A DNA stretch of 59,379 bases from Gemmatimonadaceae bacterium. GTDB lineage: Bacteria > Gemmatimonadota > Gemmatimonadetes > Gemmatimonadales > Gemmatimonadaceae. The DNA is taken from the NCBI GenBank assembly GCA_019752115.1, contig JAIEMN010000020.1, positions 202,267 to 261,645 of the forward strand, read 5' to 3'. The notes below the pieces were generated by a model, which ran no database searches, was not told where the DNA came from, and was given only the letters and a program-made list of their open reading frames with translations. Both the position numbers and the translations under genes were made by a program. Of this stretch, positions 17,896 to 25,716 are shown piece by piece (positions within the stretch are counted from its first letter, which is position 1; every line of letters starts with the position of its first letter).

Positions 17896-18507
17896 CTATC
17901 GGGCGCGGGCCGCGAGCACCGCGCGGACACCCTCGAGCGAGCCACCCACGGCGCGCAGGGCGACGAGCGCATGGTAGAGCAGATCGGCGGTCTCTTCGGT
18001 GGCACGCTCGACATCGCCGTCCACACAGGCGGTCGCGAGCTCGACCGCCTCTTCGCCCAGCTTCTTGAGGCGCAGGTTGCGATCGGCCAGCAGACGCTGC
18101 GTGTAGCTCGGTTTCTCGGCGGGTGCGGCACTCGCGCGCGACGCAATGGTGGCGTCGAGTGCGCCCAGCACGTCAGCCGCCAGCGCCTCATCGCGGAAGC
18201 ACGAGACGGTGCCCTCGTGGCAGGCCGGGCCGGCGGGCCGGACCCGCGCCAGCACGGCATCGCGGTCGCAATCCGCAGTGAGTGACACCACGTGCTGCAC
18301 GTTGCCGCTGGTGCCACCCTTGTGCCAGAGCCCGCGGCTGCGCGAGCGATAGTGCATCTCGCCGGTGCGCAGGGTCACCTCCAGCGCTTCGCGATCGGCG
18401 TGCGCCACCATGAGCACGGCCCCACTCTGCACATCCTGCGTCACCACCGTGACGAGGCCGTTGCCCTTGCTGAAATCCAACGTATCGAGATCGAGCGTCG
18501 CGCTCAT
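17896..18507 (-). CDS. hisI: Phosphoribosyl-AMP cyclohydrolase / phosphoribosyl-ATP pyrophosphatase
   Basis: 203 residues, a fused HisIE enzyme for steps two and three of histidine synthesis. The N-terminal HisI domain has MVAHADREALEVT, MHYRSRSRGLWHKG, then SGNVQHVVS and metal-binding DCDRDA plus a Cys in GPACHEG. The C-terminal HisE domain has SYTQRLLADRNLRLKKLGEE, EAVELATAC and ADLLYHALVAL. Its ATG overlaps the hisN stop (18504-18507), so translation is coupled. It is the last gene of the his cluster. Confidence 0.95.
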   Translation of the reverse strand: MSATLDLDTLDFSKGNGLVTVVTQDVQSGAVLMVAHADREALEVTLRTGEMHYRSRSRGLWHKGGTSGNVQHVVSLTADCDRDAVLARVRPAGPACHEGTVSCFRDEALAADVLGALDATIASRASAAPAEKPSYTQRLLADRNLRLKKLGEEAVELATACVDGDVERATEETADLLYHALVALRAVGGSLEGVRAVLAARAR

Positions 18508-19283
18508 GGCGTCGTCACAGAAGGTTCAAGAAGATGCGCGCGCGCGGCCGCGGCGACGCCCGCGTTGGTGGCGATGACATCACCACCGAAGGCGGTCGCG
18601 GTACCGCGCCAGTCGGTGAAGACCCCACCGGCTTCGGTAATGAGCGGATACACCGCCGCCGCATCCCACGGGTTCACGATGTCATCCACCATGATCTCCG
18701 CGCGCCCGGTGGCCACCAGCAGATATCCGTAGCAATCCCCCCAGGTGCGTGACACGCCACACTCGCGCGACAGCGCCTGCCAGCGCGGGCGCCGCGCGGC
18801 GCGCTCGGGGAACCGCTCATCGGTAATGAGGCAGGTGGACTCGGCGAGCGTGCCGATGCGGGACACCGACGCGCGCGACCCGTTCCACCAGCACCCTTCG
18901 CCGGGCGCCGCCGCCACGAGCTCGCCCACCGCCGGGTAGCAGGCCGCGCCAGCGAGCACGGTATCGCCCTCGCAGCACGCGACGAGCGTCCCCCACAGTG
19001 GCACGCCACGCACAAAGGCCTTGGTGCCATCAATGGGATCGAGAATCCACCGACGCTTCGCGTCGGCACGCTCGAGGCCGAACTCTTCACCGAAGAGCCC
19101 ATCCTGCGGAAAGCGCTGCGACAACCACGCACGCGCCTCCTGCTCAGCGGTGCGGTCGGCAATGGTCACCGGACTCCCATCGCCCTTGGTCTCCACGGCG
19201 AAATCCTTCCGGTACCACTGCATGGCGACGTTCGCAGCAAACTCGGCCACCTCGGCGGCAGCCTGCAGCAGGGAGTCACTCAT
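18504..19283 (-). CDS. hisN: Histidinol-phosphatase, inositol-monophosphatase type
   Basis: 259 residues. The metal-binding IMPase motifs are present: GEEFG, WILDPIDGTKAF and WDAAAVYPLITEAGG. Position between hisF and hisIE makes histidinol-phosphate the likely substrate rather than inositol phosphate. It is separated from the upstream hisF stop by 229 bp holding a long palindrome, the only real gap in the his cluster, while it overlaps hisIE by 4 bp. Confidence 0.92.
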   Translation of the reverse strand: MSDSLLQAAAEVAEFAANVAMQWYRKDFAVETKGDGSPVTIADRTAEQEARAWLSQRFPQDGLFGEEFGLERADAKRRWILDPIDGTKAFVRGVPLWGTLVACCEGDTVLAGAACYPAVGELVAAAPGEGCWWNGSRASVSRIGTLAESTCLITDERFPERAARRPRWQALSRECGVSRTWGDCYGYLLVATGRAEIMVDDIVNPWDAAAVYPLITEAGGVFTDWRGTATAFGGDVIATNAGVAAAARAHLLEPSVTTP

Positions 19284-19512: not shown

Positions 19513-20283
19513 TCAGACCTCCGAATACTCGCGCACCACCAGCCCCGCCGCGCGCATCGCATCCTTGAGCGCATGCACCGTCGTCAGCCCGTCATGCAGA
19601 ATGCCGGCAACGAGTACGGCATCGGCGTTGGCCTGCTGGACCGCGTCCACCAGATGCTGCGCGGTGCCGGCGCCGCCGCTGGCGATGACGGGGACGTTCA
19701 CGGCGTTGGCCACCGCGCGGGTGATCTCGAGGTCGTAGCCCGTGCGGGCGCCGTCGCGATCGATGCTGGTGAGCAGGATCTCGCCGGCGCCGCGCGCGAC
19801 GCACTCCTGCGCCCAGGCGACCGCTTCGAGCGGCGTTTCCTCACGACCGCCCTTCACCCACACCTTGTAGACGCCGTCGGCGTTCTGCTTGGCATCGATG
19901 CTCGCGACCACGCATTGCGCACCGAAGCGATCGGCCGCTTCGGTGAGCACCTGCGGATTGGTGACCGCCGCCGAGTTGAGCGACACCTTGTCGGCGCCGG
20001 CGCGCAGGGCGCGGGCGACATCCTCGGCCGTGCGCACACCCCCGCCGATCGTCAGCGGGATGAACAGCCGCTCGGCCGTGCGACGCGCCACGTCGAGCAG
20101 CGTGGCGCGTTCTTCGGCGCTCGCCGAGATGTCGAGAAAGGTGATTTCGTCGGCGCCTTCGAGCTCGTAGCGCTCGGAGAGCGCCACCGGGTCGCCCACA
20201 TCGCGGAGCCCCACGAAGTTCACGCCTTTCACCACGCGCCCGCCCTTCACATCCAGGCAGACGATCACACGTCGCGTCAGCAT
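19513..20283 (-). CDS. hisF: Imidazole glycerol phosphate synthase, cyclase subunit
   Basis: 256 residues, a complete TIM barrel. CLDVKGGRVVKGVNF holds the first catalytic Asp and VVASIDAKQNADG the second; phosphate-binding GGGVRTAEDV and IASGGAGTAQH are intact. With HisH it converts PRFAR and glutamine-derived ammonia to IGP and AICAR. Its start is 3 bp after the hisB stop. Confidence 0.97.
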   Translation of the reverse strand: MLTRRVIVCLDVKGGRVVKGVNFVGLRDVGDPVALSERYELEGADEITFLDISASAEERATLLDVARRTAERLFIPLTIGGGVRTAEDVARALRAGADKVSLNSAAVTNPQVLTEAADRFGAQCVVASIDAKQNADGVYKVWVKGGREETPLEAVAWAQECVARGAGEILLTSIDRDGARTGYDLEITRAVANAVNVPVIASGGAGTAQHLVDAVQQANADAVLVAGILHDGLTTVHALKDAMRAAGLVVREYSEV

Positions 20284-20286
20284 GCG

Positions 20287-20835
20287 TCAGGACCGCGCGT
20301 CGGTGATGTCGAGCCGCACCGCGCCCTTGGTGCTGAACACCGCGCCCGTTTCGGTGAGCGCCTGCCGCACGCAGAAGCCAAGCCCCTTGATGGCCGCTTC
20401 CACGATGTGGTGCCGGTCGAACCCGCGCAGCACGCGCACGTGCAGCGTAGCCTTGGCGTTGTCGGCAAAGGAGCGCAGGAAGTGTTCGTACAGCTTGGAC
20501 GGAAGCTTGCCGCGATAGTACGGGCGCCCGCCGAGGTCGAGGACGACCTGCACCAGTGCATCGTCCATGGGCACCGTGCGCTCGCCGTAGCGTGCGCAGC
20601 CGGCTGGCGTGAAGGCCGCGACCGCCTGGCCAAGCGTGATGGCGACGTCTTCGATGAGATGATGCCGCAGGTCGCCGCTGGCCTGCACGTCGAGGTCCAC
20701 ACCAGCATAGCGCGCGAAGGCGACCAGCATGTGATCGAGGAACGGCTCGCCGGTGGCGACGGTGGCGACACCGGTGCCTTCGGTGATGGCGATGCGGATC
20801 TTGGTTTCCTTGGACTCGCGAACGACGACGGTCAT
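20287..20835 (-). CDS. hisB: Imidazoleglycerol-phosphate dehydratase
   Basis: 182 residues, the monofunctional form. I start at MTVVVRESKETKIR because its ATG overlaps the hisA stop by 4 bp. The manganese-binding motifs are DLRHHLIEDVAI and DRHHIVEAAIKG, and EPFLDHMLVAF is conserved. It dehydrates IGP to imidazole-acetol phosphate. The phosphatase step normally fused to it in enterobacteria is supplied by hisN. Confidence 0.97.
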   Translation of the reverse strand: MTVVVRESKETKIRIAITEGTGVATVATGEPFLDHMLVAFARYAGVDLDVQASGDLRHHLIEDVAITLGQAVAAFTPAGCARYGERTVPMDDALVQVVLDLGGRPYYRGKLPSKLYEHFLRSFADNAKATLHVRVLRGFDRHHIVEAAIKGLGFCVRQALTETGAVFSTKGAVRLDITDARS

Positions 20836-21545
20836 GCTCCGAACTCCTCGGCCAGTCGGCGCGGATCGATCGCGCCCGTGTAGAGTGCCATGCCCAGCAC
20901 CGCGCCAGCCAGGCCGCGATGATCGAGCGCCCGCATGTCTTCCAGACTTGTCACCCCCCCCGACGCGAAGACGGGCCACGCGCTCGCCTCGGCGACGTCT
21001 TCCATGAGGGGCAGGTCGGTGCCCTGCATCTGCCCTTCGCGATGCACGGCCGTGACCAGCACGCCGGCGAGCGGCAGATCGCGCAGCTCGGTCATGAAAT
21101 CCACGACGTCCAGCCGCGACGTTTCCGCCCACCCCTTCGTGACGACCAACCGCTCGCGCACATCGGCGGCGATGATGAGCCGCCCCGGGAAGTGATGCGC
21201 CATCTCGGCGCGCCAGTCTTCGTCTTCCACCGCGCGCGTGCCGACGACTACCCAGGTCGCGCCTTCTTCGAGCAGCCGCTCGATGCGGGCTTCGTCGCGC
21301 ACGCCCCCGCCGACCTGCACCGGGACCGGGCTTTCGCGCAGCAGGTCGCGAATCACTTCGCTGTTCGCGCCGCGGCCGGTGGCGGCATCGAGATCCACGA
21401 TGTGCAACCGATTGAAGCCGGCATCGACCCAATCACGCGCGACACCGCGCGGATCATCGAGCCGCACCTGTTCGCGGTCGTAATCGCCGCCCACGAGCTG
21501 CACGCAGTGGCCACCACGCAGGTCCACCGCCGGAATTGCGATCAT
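20832..21545 (-). CDS. hisA: ProFAR isomerase
   Basis: 237 residues from MIAIPAVDLRGGHCVQL. Typical barrel motifs follow: VDLDAATG, VQVGGGVRDEARI, GTRAVED and FASGGVTSLEDM. It isomerises ProFAR to PRFAR. The start overlaps the hisH stop by 4 bp (21542-21545) and its stop overlaps hisB by 4 bp. Confidence 0.96.
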   Translation of the reverse strand: MIAIPAVDLRGGHCVQLVGGDYDREQVRLDDPRGVARDWVDAGFNRLHIVDLDAATGRGANSEVIRDLLRESPVPVQVGGGVRDEARIERLLEEGATWVVVGTRAVEDEDWRAEMAHHFPGRLIIAADVRERLVVTKGWAETSRLDVVDFMTELRDLPLAGVLVTAVHREGQMQGTDLPLMEDVAEASAWPVFASGGVTSLEDMRALDHRGLAGAVLGMALYTGAIDPRRLAEEFGA

Positions 21546-22198
21546 GTGCTGCTCCTCGAGCCGTAGCGGCGCGCCCGCGCCATGTTCAGGAAGGCCTTCA
21601 CGAACGCCACACCCGGGGCGCTCGACTTTTCGGGGTGAAACTGCGTCCCCACCACGTTCGCGCGCCGCACGGCGGCCGGGAAGCGATCGCCTTCGTGTTC
21701 GCTCCACGCCGTTACGTAAGGGAGGCCGTTTGCCGTGGGGCGCCCCACGAAGCTGTTCGCGTAGTAGGCCACCGCCATCTGCGCCTCGCGCAGCAGCGGC
21801 TCCGAGACGTCGGAGAGACCGTTCCACCCGATCTGGGGGATGCGGGCGGCGGTGAGCTTCTGCACCTGACCGGGGACGATGCCGAGCCCCGCGCCCGGTC
21901 CTTCATCGCTGCCGTCGAAGAAGAGCTGCATACCGAGGCAGATGCCGAGGGCCGGCAGGCCACCCAGCAGCGCGTCGCGCATGGCCTCGCGACCACTCGC
22001 GAGACGCTCGGCGGCGGGCGCGAACGCTCCCACGCCGGGGAGGACGACGGCATCGGTGTCCACCACGGCGCGGGCGGCATCGGTATCGACCCGCACGGTG
22101 GCGCCGCCGGCTTCGAGCGCCTTTACCAGCGAATGCAGATTGCCCGCGCCGTAGTCAAAGACGGCGACGTGCAACGGCGCAGTGTCTACTTCGCTCAC
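21542..22198 (-). CDS. hisH: Imidazole glycerol phosphate synthase, glutaminase subunit
   Basis: 218 residues from a GTG at 22196-22198 that overlaps the hisC stop (GTGA). VAVFDYGAGNLHSLVKAL opens the class I glutaminase fold; the nucleophile Cys is in GICLGMQLFFDGS and the His/Glu pair in GTQFHPEKS. It supplies ammonia to HisF, which is encoded two genes downstream. Confidence 0.96.
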   Translation of the reverse strand: MSEVDTAPLHVAVFDYGAGNLHSLVKALEAGGATVRVDTDAARAVVDTDAVVLPGVGAFAPAAERLASGREAMRDALLGGLPALGICLGMQLFFDGSDEGPGAGLGIVPGQVQKLTAARIPQIGWNGLSDVSEPLLREAQMAVAYYANSFVGRPTANGLPYVTAWSEHEGDRFPAAVRRANVVGTQFHPEKSSAPGVAFVKAFLNMARARRYGSRSST

Positions 22199-23265
22199 GG
22201 ATTCACCTCCGCCGTGGCGGCATGGAAGGCCGCGAGGAACTGCTCGAGCAGCTCCCACGGGCCCACCGAGATGCGCAGCGTGTCACCCACATGCGGCAAG
22301 CCTTCGAACGGGCGCGCTGCCACCCCACGGGCGCGCAGTGCCTGCCCCACCGCGACGGCGTTGCGGACCGGCACGCACACATAGTTGGCCGCCGAGGGGA
22401 GTGGCGCGTAGCCGCGCGTGCGCAGTGCCGCCGCGAGGCGGTCGCGGTTCTCGACGGCCAGCGCGACGTGCGTGCGCACCCATGCCATGTCTTCGCGGAG
22501 CGCGGCGAGTGCGATCTGTTCAGCCATCGCGTTGAGCTTGTACGGCCCGCGCGATTTCTCCACGTCGCGCACGAGTGCCGGCGCGCCGATGCCGTAGCCC
22601 ACGCGCAGGCCAGCGAGGCCGAACGCCTTGGACATCGTGCGAATCACGAGCAGGTTGCTCGTGCGGTTGGCGAGATCCACCGCCGACACGCCCGCGAACT
22701 CCGCGTACGCTTCGTCGAGAAAGACCACGCCGCCGCGCGCGTCCATCTCCCGCACCGCGCGCTCGATCGTGTCACGGGCCACCAGCGCGCCGGTGGGATT
22801 ATTGGGCGAACAGAGATAGAGAATGCGCGGGTTCGCGGCGAGCAGCGCGTCGAGATCGGGCTGCTGATCGGCGCGTTCGGTCACGCCGACGTAGCGGAGC
22901 CCATTCATCTGCGCGAAGATGGGAATCATCGCGAAGCTCGGCTCGGGGCTCGCCACCACACTGCCCGGTTCCCCGAAGGCGCGCATGGCGCTGTCGAGGA
23001 TGTCGTCGGAGCCACAGCCGGTCACGAGCCGATCGGGCGTCGTCCCCACGAAGGTCGCGAGCGCCTCCTTGAGTTCCGCCGCATAGAGCGACGGATAGCG
23101 CGTGATGCGCGCCACCGGCATCTCCCGCCAGGTGCGTTCCGCGACCGGCGGCATCCCCCACAGGTTCGTGTTGTCGGTGAGGTCGAGCGCGACCGGGGTG
23201 CGCTTGGGGTCGTAGAGCGGCACGCCGTCGTACAGCGCGCGCGCAAAGGCCAACCGCTCGCTCAT
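22195..23265 (-). CDS. hisC: Histidinol-phosphate aminotransferase
   Basis: 356 residues from the ATG at 23263-23265, which overlaps the hisD stop. It is a fold-type I PLP enzyme: SPNNPTGALV, the FLDEAYAEF strand and the PLP lysine in RTMSKAFGLAGLRVGY. SYNONYMOUS alternatives such as an aromatic aminotransferase are possible by family, but the operon position settles the assignment. Confidence 0.95.
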   Translation of the reverse strand: MSERLAFARALYDGVPLYDPKRTPVALDLTDNTNLWGMPPVAERTWREMPVARITRYPSLYAAELKEALATFVGTTPDRLVTGCGSDDILDSAMRAFGEPGSVVASPEPSFAMIPIFAQMNGLRYVGVTERADQQPDLDALLAANPRILYLCSPNNPTGALVARDTIERAVREMDARGGVVFLDEAYAEFAGVSAVDLANRTSNLLVIRTMSKAFGLAGLRVGYGIGAPALVRDVEKSRGPYKLNAMAEQIALAALREDMAWVRTHVALAVENRDRLAAALRTRGYAPLPSAANYVCVPVRNAVAVGQALRARGVAARPFEGLPHVGDTLRISVGPWELLEQFLAAFHAATAEVNP

Positions 23266-24620
23266 CGTGCCGCCTCCCACGCCCGCGCGGCGGCCGCGTG
23301 TGCGGGCAGCCCTTCGGCGTCGGCAAAGCGCCCCACATCATCGGCGAGTGCCGCGGCGGCGGCCGGTGAGACTTCCTGCCAGGTGGTCCAGCGCACGAAG
23401 TCGAGTGTGGACAGCCCGGAGTACGAGCGGCCCGCGCCGGCGGTGGGCAGCACGTGATTGGCGCCGGTCATGTAATCGCCGTAGGCCACCGAGCTGGAGG
23501 CGCCCACGAAAATCGTGCCGGCACTGCGCAGCTGCGCGAGCGTGTCGGCGCGTTCGGCCTCGTTCACCACCAGCAGCAGATGCTCGGCGGCCCATTCATT
23601 CGCGAAGGCGATGCCTTCGGCGAGCGTGTCGAACCAGACGATGCCGCCCCGCGCGGCGAGACTCGCGCGCACGATGTCCGCGCGCGGTGCCGTCGCGAGC
23701 TGCGCGTCGAGCGCCTTCTCGATGGCGATCGCCAGCGCGCCCACCGGACCCGCGCTCTTCACGAGCACGGTGATGACCGCGGCATCGGGGTCGTGCTCGG
23801 CCTGCGCCATCATCTCGCGCGCGATCGCGGTGGCATCGGCCGACGCATCGGCCAGCACGAGCAGCTCACTCGGCCCGGCCGGCGAGTCGATGGCCACGTG
23901 CGAGACGAGCTGCAGCTTGGCTTCCGCGACCCAGGCGTTGCCGGGCCCCATGATGCGGTCCACGCGCGGCACGGTGGCCGTGCCGAGGGCCATGGCGGCG
24001 ATGGCGCCGGCGCCGCCCAGAGCGAAGACGCGATCGACGCCGGCGAGCGCGGCGGCGGCGAGCACCACTTCCGACGGCCGCCCATCGGGGCCCGGCGGGG
24101 AGCAGACGATGACCTCACCCACGTCGGCCACCCGCGCCGGAACGGCCCCCATGAGCAGCGAGCTGGGATACGCGGCGCGCCCACCGGGCGCATAAATCCC
24201 CACCCGGGCGAGCGGGTCGGGGCGGCGCCCGACCACGATCCCGGGCTCCGGCGAGCAGTGCGTGGCCTGCGGCCGGAAGGCCTCGTGTACCGCCGCGATG
24301 TTCCGGGCCGACCGCTCGAGGGAGCGCCGGAGCCCGGGATCGAGGCGGTCGAGGGCCTCGGTCCAGGCCGCGCGCGGCACTTCCAGCGAGGCGAGGGCGA
24401 CGCGATCAAAGTCGCGGGCAAAGCGGCGTAGCGCCTCGTCGCCGTTCTTCCGCACCTCTTCAATGATGGCGGTCGTTCGGATCCTAACGGTGGCGTCGGT
24501 GGTGGACGACCGGTCCACCAGCGCCCGCCGCGTGTCCGGGGTCAGATCGGCGACGGGGCCCCGGGCGCGCAACGCGAGCCGGCCGGCCACGCGCCCGTCG
24601 TTTGGAGGCGCCGCACTCAC
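23262..24620 (-). CDS. hisD: Histidinol dehydrogenase
   Basis: 452 residues from a GTG at 24618-24620 that overlaps the hisG stop. Motifs are VGIYAPGGRAAYPSS, DRIMGPGNAWVAEAK, SPAGPSELLVLAD with zinc ligands in MMAQAEHDPDA, and ASSSVAYGDYMTGANHVLPT near the C-terminus. It performs the last two NAD-dependent oxidations to histidine. The first 35 residues are less conserved, so a slightly later start is possible. Confidence 0.96.
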   Translation of the reverse strand: MSAAPPNDGRVAGRLALRARGPVADLTPDTRRALVDRSSTTDATVRIRTTAIIEEVRKNGDEALRRFARDFDRVALASLEVPRAAWTEALDRLDPGLRRSLERSARNIAAVHEAFRPQATHCSPEPGIVVGRRPDPLARVGIYAPGGRAAYPSSLLMGAVPARVADVGEVIVCSPPGPDGRPSEVVLAAAALAGVDRVFALGGAGAIAAMALGTATVPRVDRIMGPGNAWVAEAKLQLVSHVAIDSPAGPSELLVLADASADATAIAREMMAQAEHDPDAAVITVLVKSAGPVGALAIAIEKALDAQLATAPRADIVRASLAARGGIVWFDTLAEGIAFANEWAAEHLLLVVNEAERADTLAQLRSAGTIFVGASSSVAYGDYMTGANHVLPTAGAGRSYSGLSTLDFVRWTTWQEVSPAAAAALADDVGRFADAEGLPAHAAAARAWEAAR

Positions 24621-25495
24621 GGGACGAGCCTCTCGATGCGTGTCACGAGGATGCCCTCGGCGCCGATGCCCCGGAGCTGGGAGATGGTGCGATAGATGGT
24701 GGCGGCGCTGACGACGGCGTGCACCGCGACGAACGTCTCGGATTCGGCGATATCGATGACGGTCGGGCCGTTGAGCCCGGGGAGCACCCCGCGCACGGCG
24801 TCGAGCGAGGCGCGGGGGACGTTGGCCATGAGGTAGCGCTGCCCCCGGGCCCGGATCACCGAGGCGAGGGCGGTGACCAGGTCGTCGAGATCGCGGCCGC
24901 GGTCGTTGGCACCCGGGGGCGGGAAGCCCTTGGCGGTGATCAGGTGGGCGGAGGAGCGCAGCACCGTCTCGATCTCGCGCAGGCCGTTCACCCGCAGGGT
25001 CGACCCCGTGGACGTCAGGTCCACGACGACGTCGGCGATCCCCAGGTGCGGGGCGATCTCGGCGGCGCCGGACACCGGCACGACCTCGACCGGGCGGCCG
25101 GCGTCGGCAAAGAAGCGGCGCGTGATGTTCGGGAAGACGGTTGCCACCCGAACGGTCTTGCCGTTGGCCCCGATGTCCTCGACTGAGCGGATGCCGCTGT
25201 CGTCCTTGGCGGCCACCACCAGACGGCACTTCCCGAAGCCCAGATCCAGATGGGAGGTGAGCTCCCGCCCCGATTCGTTGACCAGATCCCACCCCGTCAC
25301 GCCCACATCGGCGGCGCCGTCGGCGACGAACTCCGGGATGTCCTGGGCGCGGACGAAAATGGCCTCGAACTCCCCGCCAAGCGACGCGGTGAGGGCGCGG
25401 TCGCCCGAGGAGCGGACCTCGAGGCCGGCGTCATTGAAGAGTTCGCGGGTGTCTTCGGAGAGACGGCCCTTGTTGGGCAGGGCGATGCGGAGCAT
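24617..25495 (-). CDS. hisG: ATP phosphoribosyltransferase, long form
   Basis: 292 residues from MLRIALPNKGRLSEDT. The catalytic PRPP loop is in VVVDLTSTGSTLRVNGL. A C-terminal domain of about 75 residues (YLMANVPRASLDAVRGVLPG...GILVTRIERLVP) is the ACT-like histidine-feedback domain of the long form, so no HisZ is needed. It is the first structural gene of the operon and lies 30 bp downstream of the leader terminator (25525-25556). Confidence 0.96.
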   Translation of the reverse strand: MLRIALPNKGRLSEDTRELFNDAGLEVRSSGDRALTASLGGEFEAIFVRAQDIPEFVADGAADVGVTGWDLVNESGRELTSHLDLGFGKCRLVVAAKDDSGIRSVEDIGANGKTVRVATVFPNITRRFFADAGRPVEVVPVSGAAEIAPHLGIADVVVDLTSTGSTLRVNGLREIETVLRSSAHLITAKGFPPPGANDRGRDLDDLVTALASVIRARGQRYLMANVPRASLDAVRGVLPGLNGPTVIDIAESETFVAVHAVVSAATIYRTISQLRGIGAEGILVTRIERLVP

Positions 25496-25524: not shown

Positions 25525-25556
25525 AAAACAAAAAGGCCCGTCCGGAGGGACGGGCC
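25525..25556 (-). terminator. his leader attenuator terminator
   Basis: On the minus strand GGCCCGTCC (25556 to 25548) pairs perfectly with GGACGGGCC (25543 to 25535) over a 4-nt loop, followed by TTTTTGTTTT. It is a strong intrinsic terminator placed between the leader peptide and hisG. An upstream segment GCGCCCGTCC (25584 to 25575) repeats the 5-prime arm and could pair with the 3-prime arm, giving an alternative structure that would block termination. Confidence 0.9.
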
Positions 25557-25594
25557 GCAGGTCGTTCGGGCGTGGGACGGGCGCTGGCTGCCGG

Positions 25595-25678
25595 TTACCC
25601 TGTCACGCGCGAAACGCCCCGACCCGTCGGGCCGTGGCCATGATGCGCATGATGGTGGGTGGTGTGGCGGTTCAGCAT
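25595..25678 (-). CDS. hisL: His operon leader peptide with seven histidines
   Basis: 27 codons, ATG at 25678 to TAA at 25597-25595. It encodes MLNRHTTHHHAHHGHGPTG and then RGVSRVTG. Seven of the first fifteen residues are His (positions 5, 8, 9, 10, 12, 13 and 15). It lies between a sigma70-like promoter and the intrinsic terminator preceding hisG. By the known mechanism of his attenuation, ribosome stalling at the His codons under histidine shortage would favour an antiterminator. The codons for Pro17-Gly19 contain GACGGG, which could pair with the CCCGTC segments downstream. No Shine-Dalgarno sequence is visible. Confidence 0.88.
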   Translation of the reverse strand: MLNRHTTHHHAHHGHGPTGRGVSRVTG

Positions 25679-25687
25679 GATGGCCGG

Positions 25688-25716
25688 AGGCTAGCGCCGA
25701 AAGTCGGAGGCGTCAA
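25688..25716 (-). promoter_or_regulatory. Promoter of the his operon
   Basis: On the minus strand TTGACG (25716-25711), a 17-bp spacer and TAGCCT (25693-25688). Transcription would start near 25681, only about 3 nt before the hisL ATG, so the leader peptide would be nearly leaderless. The match to sigma70 spacing is exact but the -10 box is weak. Confidence 0.6.

Follow-up and report, generated by a model that had tools for sequence, protein, structure and literature searches.

A putative ribosome-mediated attenuator with a histidine-rich leader frame ahead of the his operon in Gemmatimonadota

What is known of leader-peptide attenuation of amino acid operons comes mainly from Proteobacteria, along with some Actinobacteria and a few Firmicutes (PMC2965389, PMC9413887). 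The enterobacterial his attenuator (hisL, RF00514) consists of a short frame with His codons and, between this frame and hisG, an antiterminator and an intrinsic terminator that exclude each other (PMC9413887). Outside Proteobacteria, attenuators with a His-rich leader peptide, a terminator and an antiterminator were proposed by comparative genomics in Firmicutes, namely in the B. cereus group, Peptostreptococcaceae and Erysipelotrichales and in the hisS/hisZ leaders of bacilli (PMC9413887, PMC2965389). The leader described here, from Gemmatimonadota, resembles both. In contrast to hisL, however, its antiterminator strand lies inside the ORF right past the His codons, where it copies the terminator 3' arm, and its start codon is near the predicted 5' end of the transcript. 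Whereas the Firmicutes systems belong to small groups of related species, the Gemmatimonadota leader has its own sequence and is nearly universal in large parts of the phylum. An initial annotation had guessed the organism to be a Gemmatimonadota, as it is, and had placed it far from the lineages where this layout is usually described; the remoteness stands but not uniqueness, given the published Firmicutes attenuators (PMC9413887, PMC2965389) and the same type in Myxococcaceae.

The window, by which we mean the whole stretch of 59,379 nucleotides analysed, comes from a genome of 5.17 Mb in 83 contigs, and the relatives of its HisG (79-88% identity) are mostly Gemmatimonas or Gemmatimonadaceae. 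The host is a soil or water bacterium. On the minus strand, positions 25525-25716 hold in order a promoter, 9 nt, a 27-codon frame, a 38-nt gap, a hairpin and a T tract; hisG starts 39 nt past the terminator stem, and a complete his operon (hisGDCHABFN-IE), all in the same direction, lies downstream of the leader. The features are as follows.

25711..25716, minus strand: -35 hexamer TTGACG, read from the sequence, conserved in relatives
25688..25693, minus strand: -10 hexamer TAGCCT, 17 nt spacer from the -35
25595..25678, minus strand: his leader ORF, 27 aa, MLNRHTTHHHAHHGHGPTGRGVSRVTG, predicted near-leaderless
25634..25666, minus strand: run with 7 His codons, CAC and CAT mixed
25629..25633, minus strand: segment 1, GGCCC, directly 3' of the last His codon; complementary to GGGTC in segment 2, for a protector hairpin 1:2
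25615..25628, minus strand: segment 2, GACGGGTCGGGGCG, within the ORF; mimics the terminator 3' arm; predicted antiterminator strand
25575..25584, minus strand: GCGCCCGTCC, duplicate; present, not conserved, not regarded as functional
25548..25561, minus strand: segment 3, CCTGC plus terminator 5' arm GGCCCGTCC (arm alone 25548-25556)
25535..25543, minus strand: segment 4, terminator 3' arm GGACGGGCC
25525..25534, minus strand: T tract TTTTTGTTTT
24617..25495, minus strand: hisG, ATP phosphoribosyltransferase, long form (TIGR00070, TIGR03455)
23262..24600, minus strand: hisD, start approximate (TIGR00069)
22195..23280, minus strand: hisC (best match TIGR01141, slightly under its cut-off)
21542..22168, minus strand: hisH, start approximate (TIGR01855)
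20832..21546, minus strand: hisA, start approximate (TIGR00007, at its cut-off)
20287..20831, minus strand: hisB, IGPD domain, start approximate (PF00475)
19513..20283, minus strand: hisF (PF00977)
18504..19283, minus strand: hisN (TIGR02067)
17896..18507, minus strand: hisIE (NF002747)

The leader codons are ATG CTG AAC CGC CAC ACC ACC CAC CAT CAT GCG CAT CAT GGC CAC GGC CCG ACG GGT CGG GGC GTT TCG CGC GTG ACA GGG TAA, and the terminator (25535-25556, minus strand) reads GGCCCGTCC-CTCC-GGACGGGCC, a perfect 9-bp stem with 8 GC pairs, then TTTTTGTTTT. The seven-His frame (19 plus eight residues), the perfect GC-rich hairpin with its T tract and the promoter ahead had been pointed out in the initial annotation and all proved to be present, the promoter with a -10 box too weak for a strict sigma-70 scan yet conserved in relatives. 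The locus has the features of the attenuator class: a His-rich ORF (7 of 27 codons), a terminator, a promoter upstream and a predicted alternative helix that would exclude the terminator. The best explanation, to which we assign a probability of about 0.92, is that it controls the his operon by ribosome-mediated transcription attenuation.

Sequence comparison shows the leader, the terminator, the 1:2, 2:3 and 3:4 complementarities with their conservation, and the place of the promoter. From the established attenuation biology of hisL and trpL, we infer ribosome stalling, transcription-translation coupling and the direction of regulation; the exact transcription start is predicted from the promoter. 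Transcription would begin at, or a few nucleotides before, the AUG of the short His-rich frame. A shortage of charged tRNA-His would stall the ribosome at the His codons and leave the downstream ORF segment (GACGGGUCGGGG) free; this segment 2 would pair with the newly made terminator 5' arm, plus the CCUC/CCGC just ahead of the arm, and the antiterminator would exclude the terminator, so that hisG onward is transcribed. If histidine is ample, the ribosome would traverse the GPTGRG codons and occupy or strip segment 2, in which case the terminator hairpin would form and transcription would end ahead of hisG. When there is no translation, a small hairpin between segment 1 (GGCCC) and segment 2 (GGGUC) would tend to sequester segment 2. 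By this sequence-based model, leader and terminator would very probably turn the his genes on only at histidine shortage.

As the initial annotation had proposed, we compared relatives: hisG loci were gathered at every rank from the genus of the window up to its phylum, and the sequence ahead of each was scanned for short ORFs. A His-rich leader (at least 4 His within 12 residues) turned up in 127 of 149 Gemmatimonadota loci. The controls gave 2/149 for the opposite strand, 0/148 when the first 350 nt of hisG were scanned, and 2.1% for dinucleotide-shuffled sequences. Loci scored as negative include true leaders with fewer His residues (L029, MLAARTHHHRPRPTG..., and L086, ...YHHRATLTG...), a leader interrupted by undetermined bases (L171) and a locus at the edge of a contig (L021). 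Among HisG similar to that of the window, the leader is present in 84/88 loci of family f1, 8/8 of f5, 25/26 of f7 and 3/3 of f2; it was not found in f8 and f11, of which few members were sampled, nor in part of f2. Leaders also occur ahead of a distant HisG type (~32% identity) in f2 and f7, and in Myxococcaceae/Archangiaceae and Eisenbacteria records. The leader finder is not indiscriminate, since no Trp-rich leader (at least 3 Trp) was found at 15 trpE loci of the genus and no Leu-rich leader at its 2 leuA loci (L284-L300 for both genes); attenuation seems not to be used at trpE and leuA in this genus, judging from these upstream regions.

Of 203 leader loci, 202 have a terminator in the interval from the leader stop codon to hisG. 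This bears on the reading that the leader acts on translation or via Rho, by sequestering the ribosome-binding site or by Rho-dependent polarity, and not through an intrinsic terminator. Attenuators that sequester the ribosome-binding site are mentioned in PMC9413887, but here the GC-rich stem and T tract are kept in all of these loci but one and stand 13-124 nt upstream of hisG (median 42), usually clear of its start codon, so we regard that reading as improbable.

The segment after the His codons (GACGGGTCGGGG in the window) nearly repeats the terminator 3' arm GGACGGGCC, with the consensus GGCCC-GACGGG-(T/C)CGGGG in an alignment of 80 leaders, and can therefore pair with the 5' arm and a few preceding bases; it is also complementary to the GGCCC right after the last His codon. 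In pair counts, which relatedness inflates, the terminator stem (3:4) is 97.5% paired, with 20 cells changed on both sides vs 3.9 when shuffled and both-side changes at 5 pairs; the antiterminator (2:3) is 83.3% paired vs 81.0 when shuffled (0/500 as high) and 34-52% when slid; and the protector hairpin (1:2), likewise conserved and a candidate for the hairpin at which attenuators pause RNA polymerase to keep it in step with the ribosome, has 84.2% of cells paired vs 79.2 (0/500 as high). The core CGGG:CCCG is nearly invariant, so the flanks and the divergent lineages supply much of the evidence for pairing. In swap tests, only partly corrected for shared ancestry, the duplex of each leader segment with its own terminator arm beat all 5000 permutations over 98 non-redundant loci, and 0/5000 also within the 72 loci with the canonical arm (GGCCCGTCC) and the 26 without it. 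At one locus (L215) leader, 5' arm and 3' arm have changed in concert to GACAGG / CCTGTC / GACAGG, and by eye GGCCGGTGATCG in the leader stands opposite CGATCgatgCCGGCC in f4, as does GGGGCGGGTTGATGGTG opposite CACCATCAACGCCGGCCCC in L256. This conserved, co-varying complementarity between leader and terminator across the phylum supports a ribosome-mediated attenuator, the layout named in the initial annotation. For alternative pairing, that annotation had offered two strands, of which the GACGGG of the leader (25623-25628) is part of segment 2, which can pair with the terminator 5' arm. The other, the duplicate of the 5' arm (GCGCCCGTCC), exists but was rejected: in the gap from leader stop to terminator, 2/155 unique relatives and 1/27 within the genus have a CCCGT[CT], only the window and one distant relative carrying one. 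Since this duplicate is private to the window genome, the terminator 5' arm would itself pair with leader segment 2 to form the antiterminator.

The codons of the leader also speak to a reading in which the His-rich peptide has a function of its own, such as metal binding, and the terminator does no more than end its transcript. Motifs of the HHHxHHxH type could bind metals, and this one is well conserved in the genus. More widely, however, His number and sequence drift while the leader always stays ahead of hisG, and the peptide past the His run differs between families, yet its complementarity to the terminator is kept. In the His runs, CAC and CAT stand at 243 to 207, so that His identity is kept while the third position varies freely. 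In segment 2, by contrast, 29/29 loci with residues T-G-x encode the Thr as ACG; the first part thus appears selected as codons and the second as RNA. We consider a peptide product very improbable.

The leader sequence differs from that of enterobacterial hisL, and membership in RF00514 was rejected, with no match at the hisG leader of the window and 0 of 30 genus genomes above the gathering cut-off. Pfam gave no family at E<=10 for the 27-aa peptide, short queries being hard for HMMs. That another sensor controls hisG, with the leader secondary, is hardly credible: T-box, riboswitch and HisR systems do control his genes in Firmicutes and Actinobacteria (PMC9413887), but no T-box or riboswitch was found at E<=10 at the leader, no Rfam family reached threshold in the window, and no HisR-type palindrome was found within one mismatch in the 3.4-kb hisG locus.

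For the attenuator, predicted folding was followed by ribosome position in RNA truncated after the terminator 5' arm, with the 3' arm still unmade. In the window, predicted pairing of the 5' arm with the leader is 0.85-0.89 while any of the first six His codons occupies the A site, 0.54 for the seventh and 0.00 for the Pro/Thr codons that come next; the 2:3 pairing climbs again to ~0.65 when the Arg/Gly codons are in the A site, and from the Ser codon through the stop it is 0.00-0.02. Over 75 relatives, mean arm-leader pairing is 0.73 at the first His, ~0.4-0.5 at the last His and ~0.06 nine codons later. With the ribosome stalled at the last His, swapped arms did as well as the loci's own (0.48 vs 0.44) because the core is nearly invariant; it is the duplex swap over the longer helix that discriminates. 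Without a ribosome the antiterminator is predicted at 0.41, suggesting that protection by 1:2 is only partial. Equilibrium folding of the full leader including the 3' arm was tried as a test of the switch and rejected: the terminator is favoured at every ribosome position, at 0.88-1.00 even with the ribosome on the His codons, which is uninformative for a kinetic switch. The switch must hence be kinetic, with the antiterminator formed before the 3' arm emerges, and attenuators are usually held to switch in this way.

The promoter is conserved as well. A TTGAC-16/18-TANNNT match precedes 49 of 75 non-redundant leaders, against 0.64% of shuffles. In 46 of the 49, a gap of 5-11 nt separates the -10 box from the leader start codon, and SD-like 4-mers are present at 6 of the 75. 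Transcription usually starts ~7 nt past the -10 box, and the 5' UTR of the leader would then be 0-4 nt, with the start in the window at about 25681, ~3 nt ahead of the ATG. This conserved spacing suggests that the leader frame is probably leaderless. The arrangement TTGAC-N17/19-TANNNT-N5/9-ATG occurs at 17 places in the genome (L267-L283) vs 3 for the reversed pattern, which makes leaderless genes plausible in this genome. The 17 sites are mostly before the ATG of long, gene-like frames, by eye ArsR-, HrcA- and TetR-like regulators among others, and are likely leaderless genes. Canestrari et al. (2020; cited in PMC13236596) reportedly found leaderless polycysteine ORF attenuators in mycobacteria. 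There, a short leaderless ORF with many codons for the amino acid that it senses reportedly precedes the matching operon, as would be the case here; those attenuators differ in sensing cysteine, in another phylum, while the leaderless start of the histidine system here is deduced from promoter position.

Leaders of the same kind occur in Corallococcus, Myxococcus, Pyxidicoccus and Archangium (L115-L165), whose HisG mostly groups among Gemmatimonadota; in a HisG tree without an outgroup, most Myxococcota sequences form one group there. A transfer of operon and leader between the two phyla is possible, and the tree would fit it, without proof. Two further records, one titled Candidatus Kuenenia stuttgartiensis (L098) and one Comamonas sp. 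(L134), are probably mislabelled or contaminated, since their HisG and leaders fall among those of Gemmatimonas and Myxococcus. Before the distant HisG type, His leaders are followed by different terminator sequences (L237, L238, L240, L243, L248, L250, L253-L256, L259-L266), as if the leader had stayed during replacement of HisG or had arisen anew. Upstream of hisG in f4 g80 (L239, L241, L242, L244-L247, L249), leader peptides like MTNTHPFFGHYYFHRVRGGR mix His, Phe and Tyr codons, and these may sense aromatic amino acids besides histidine.

Our search of the open-access literature found no report of a his attenuator for Gemmatimonadota or Myxococcus, an absence that is not proof, with the main proteobacterial survey outside its scope. 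The mechanism class is known; for this lineage and architecture, the literature searched yielded no earlier description. With more modest confidence than for the attenuator itself, we lean towards a phylum-wide class of his attenuators in which the leader ORF is leaderless, so that sensing would need 70S initiation at the 5' end, in which segments 1 and 2 lie inside the coding frame, and which persists with the his operon despite the swap of HisG to the distant type and has also reached Myxococcaceae. Conservation of the attenuator throughout the phylum suggests that transcription and translation are coupled closely enough there for regulation, and coupling becomes testable in the little-studied Gemmatimonadota. 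A leaderless sensor ORF, if true, would tie attenuation to a different route of initiation. For annotation, the finding gives a simple rule, to look ahead of hisG for a short frame rich in His that has been left unannotated; the element is also a candidate for a new Rfam family.
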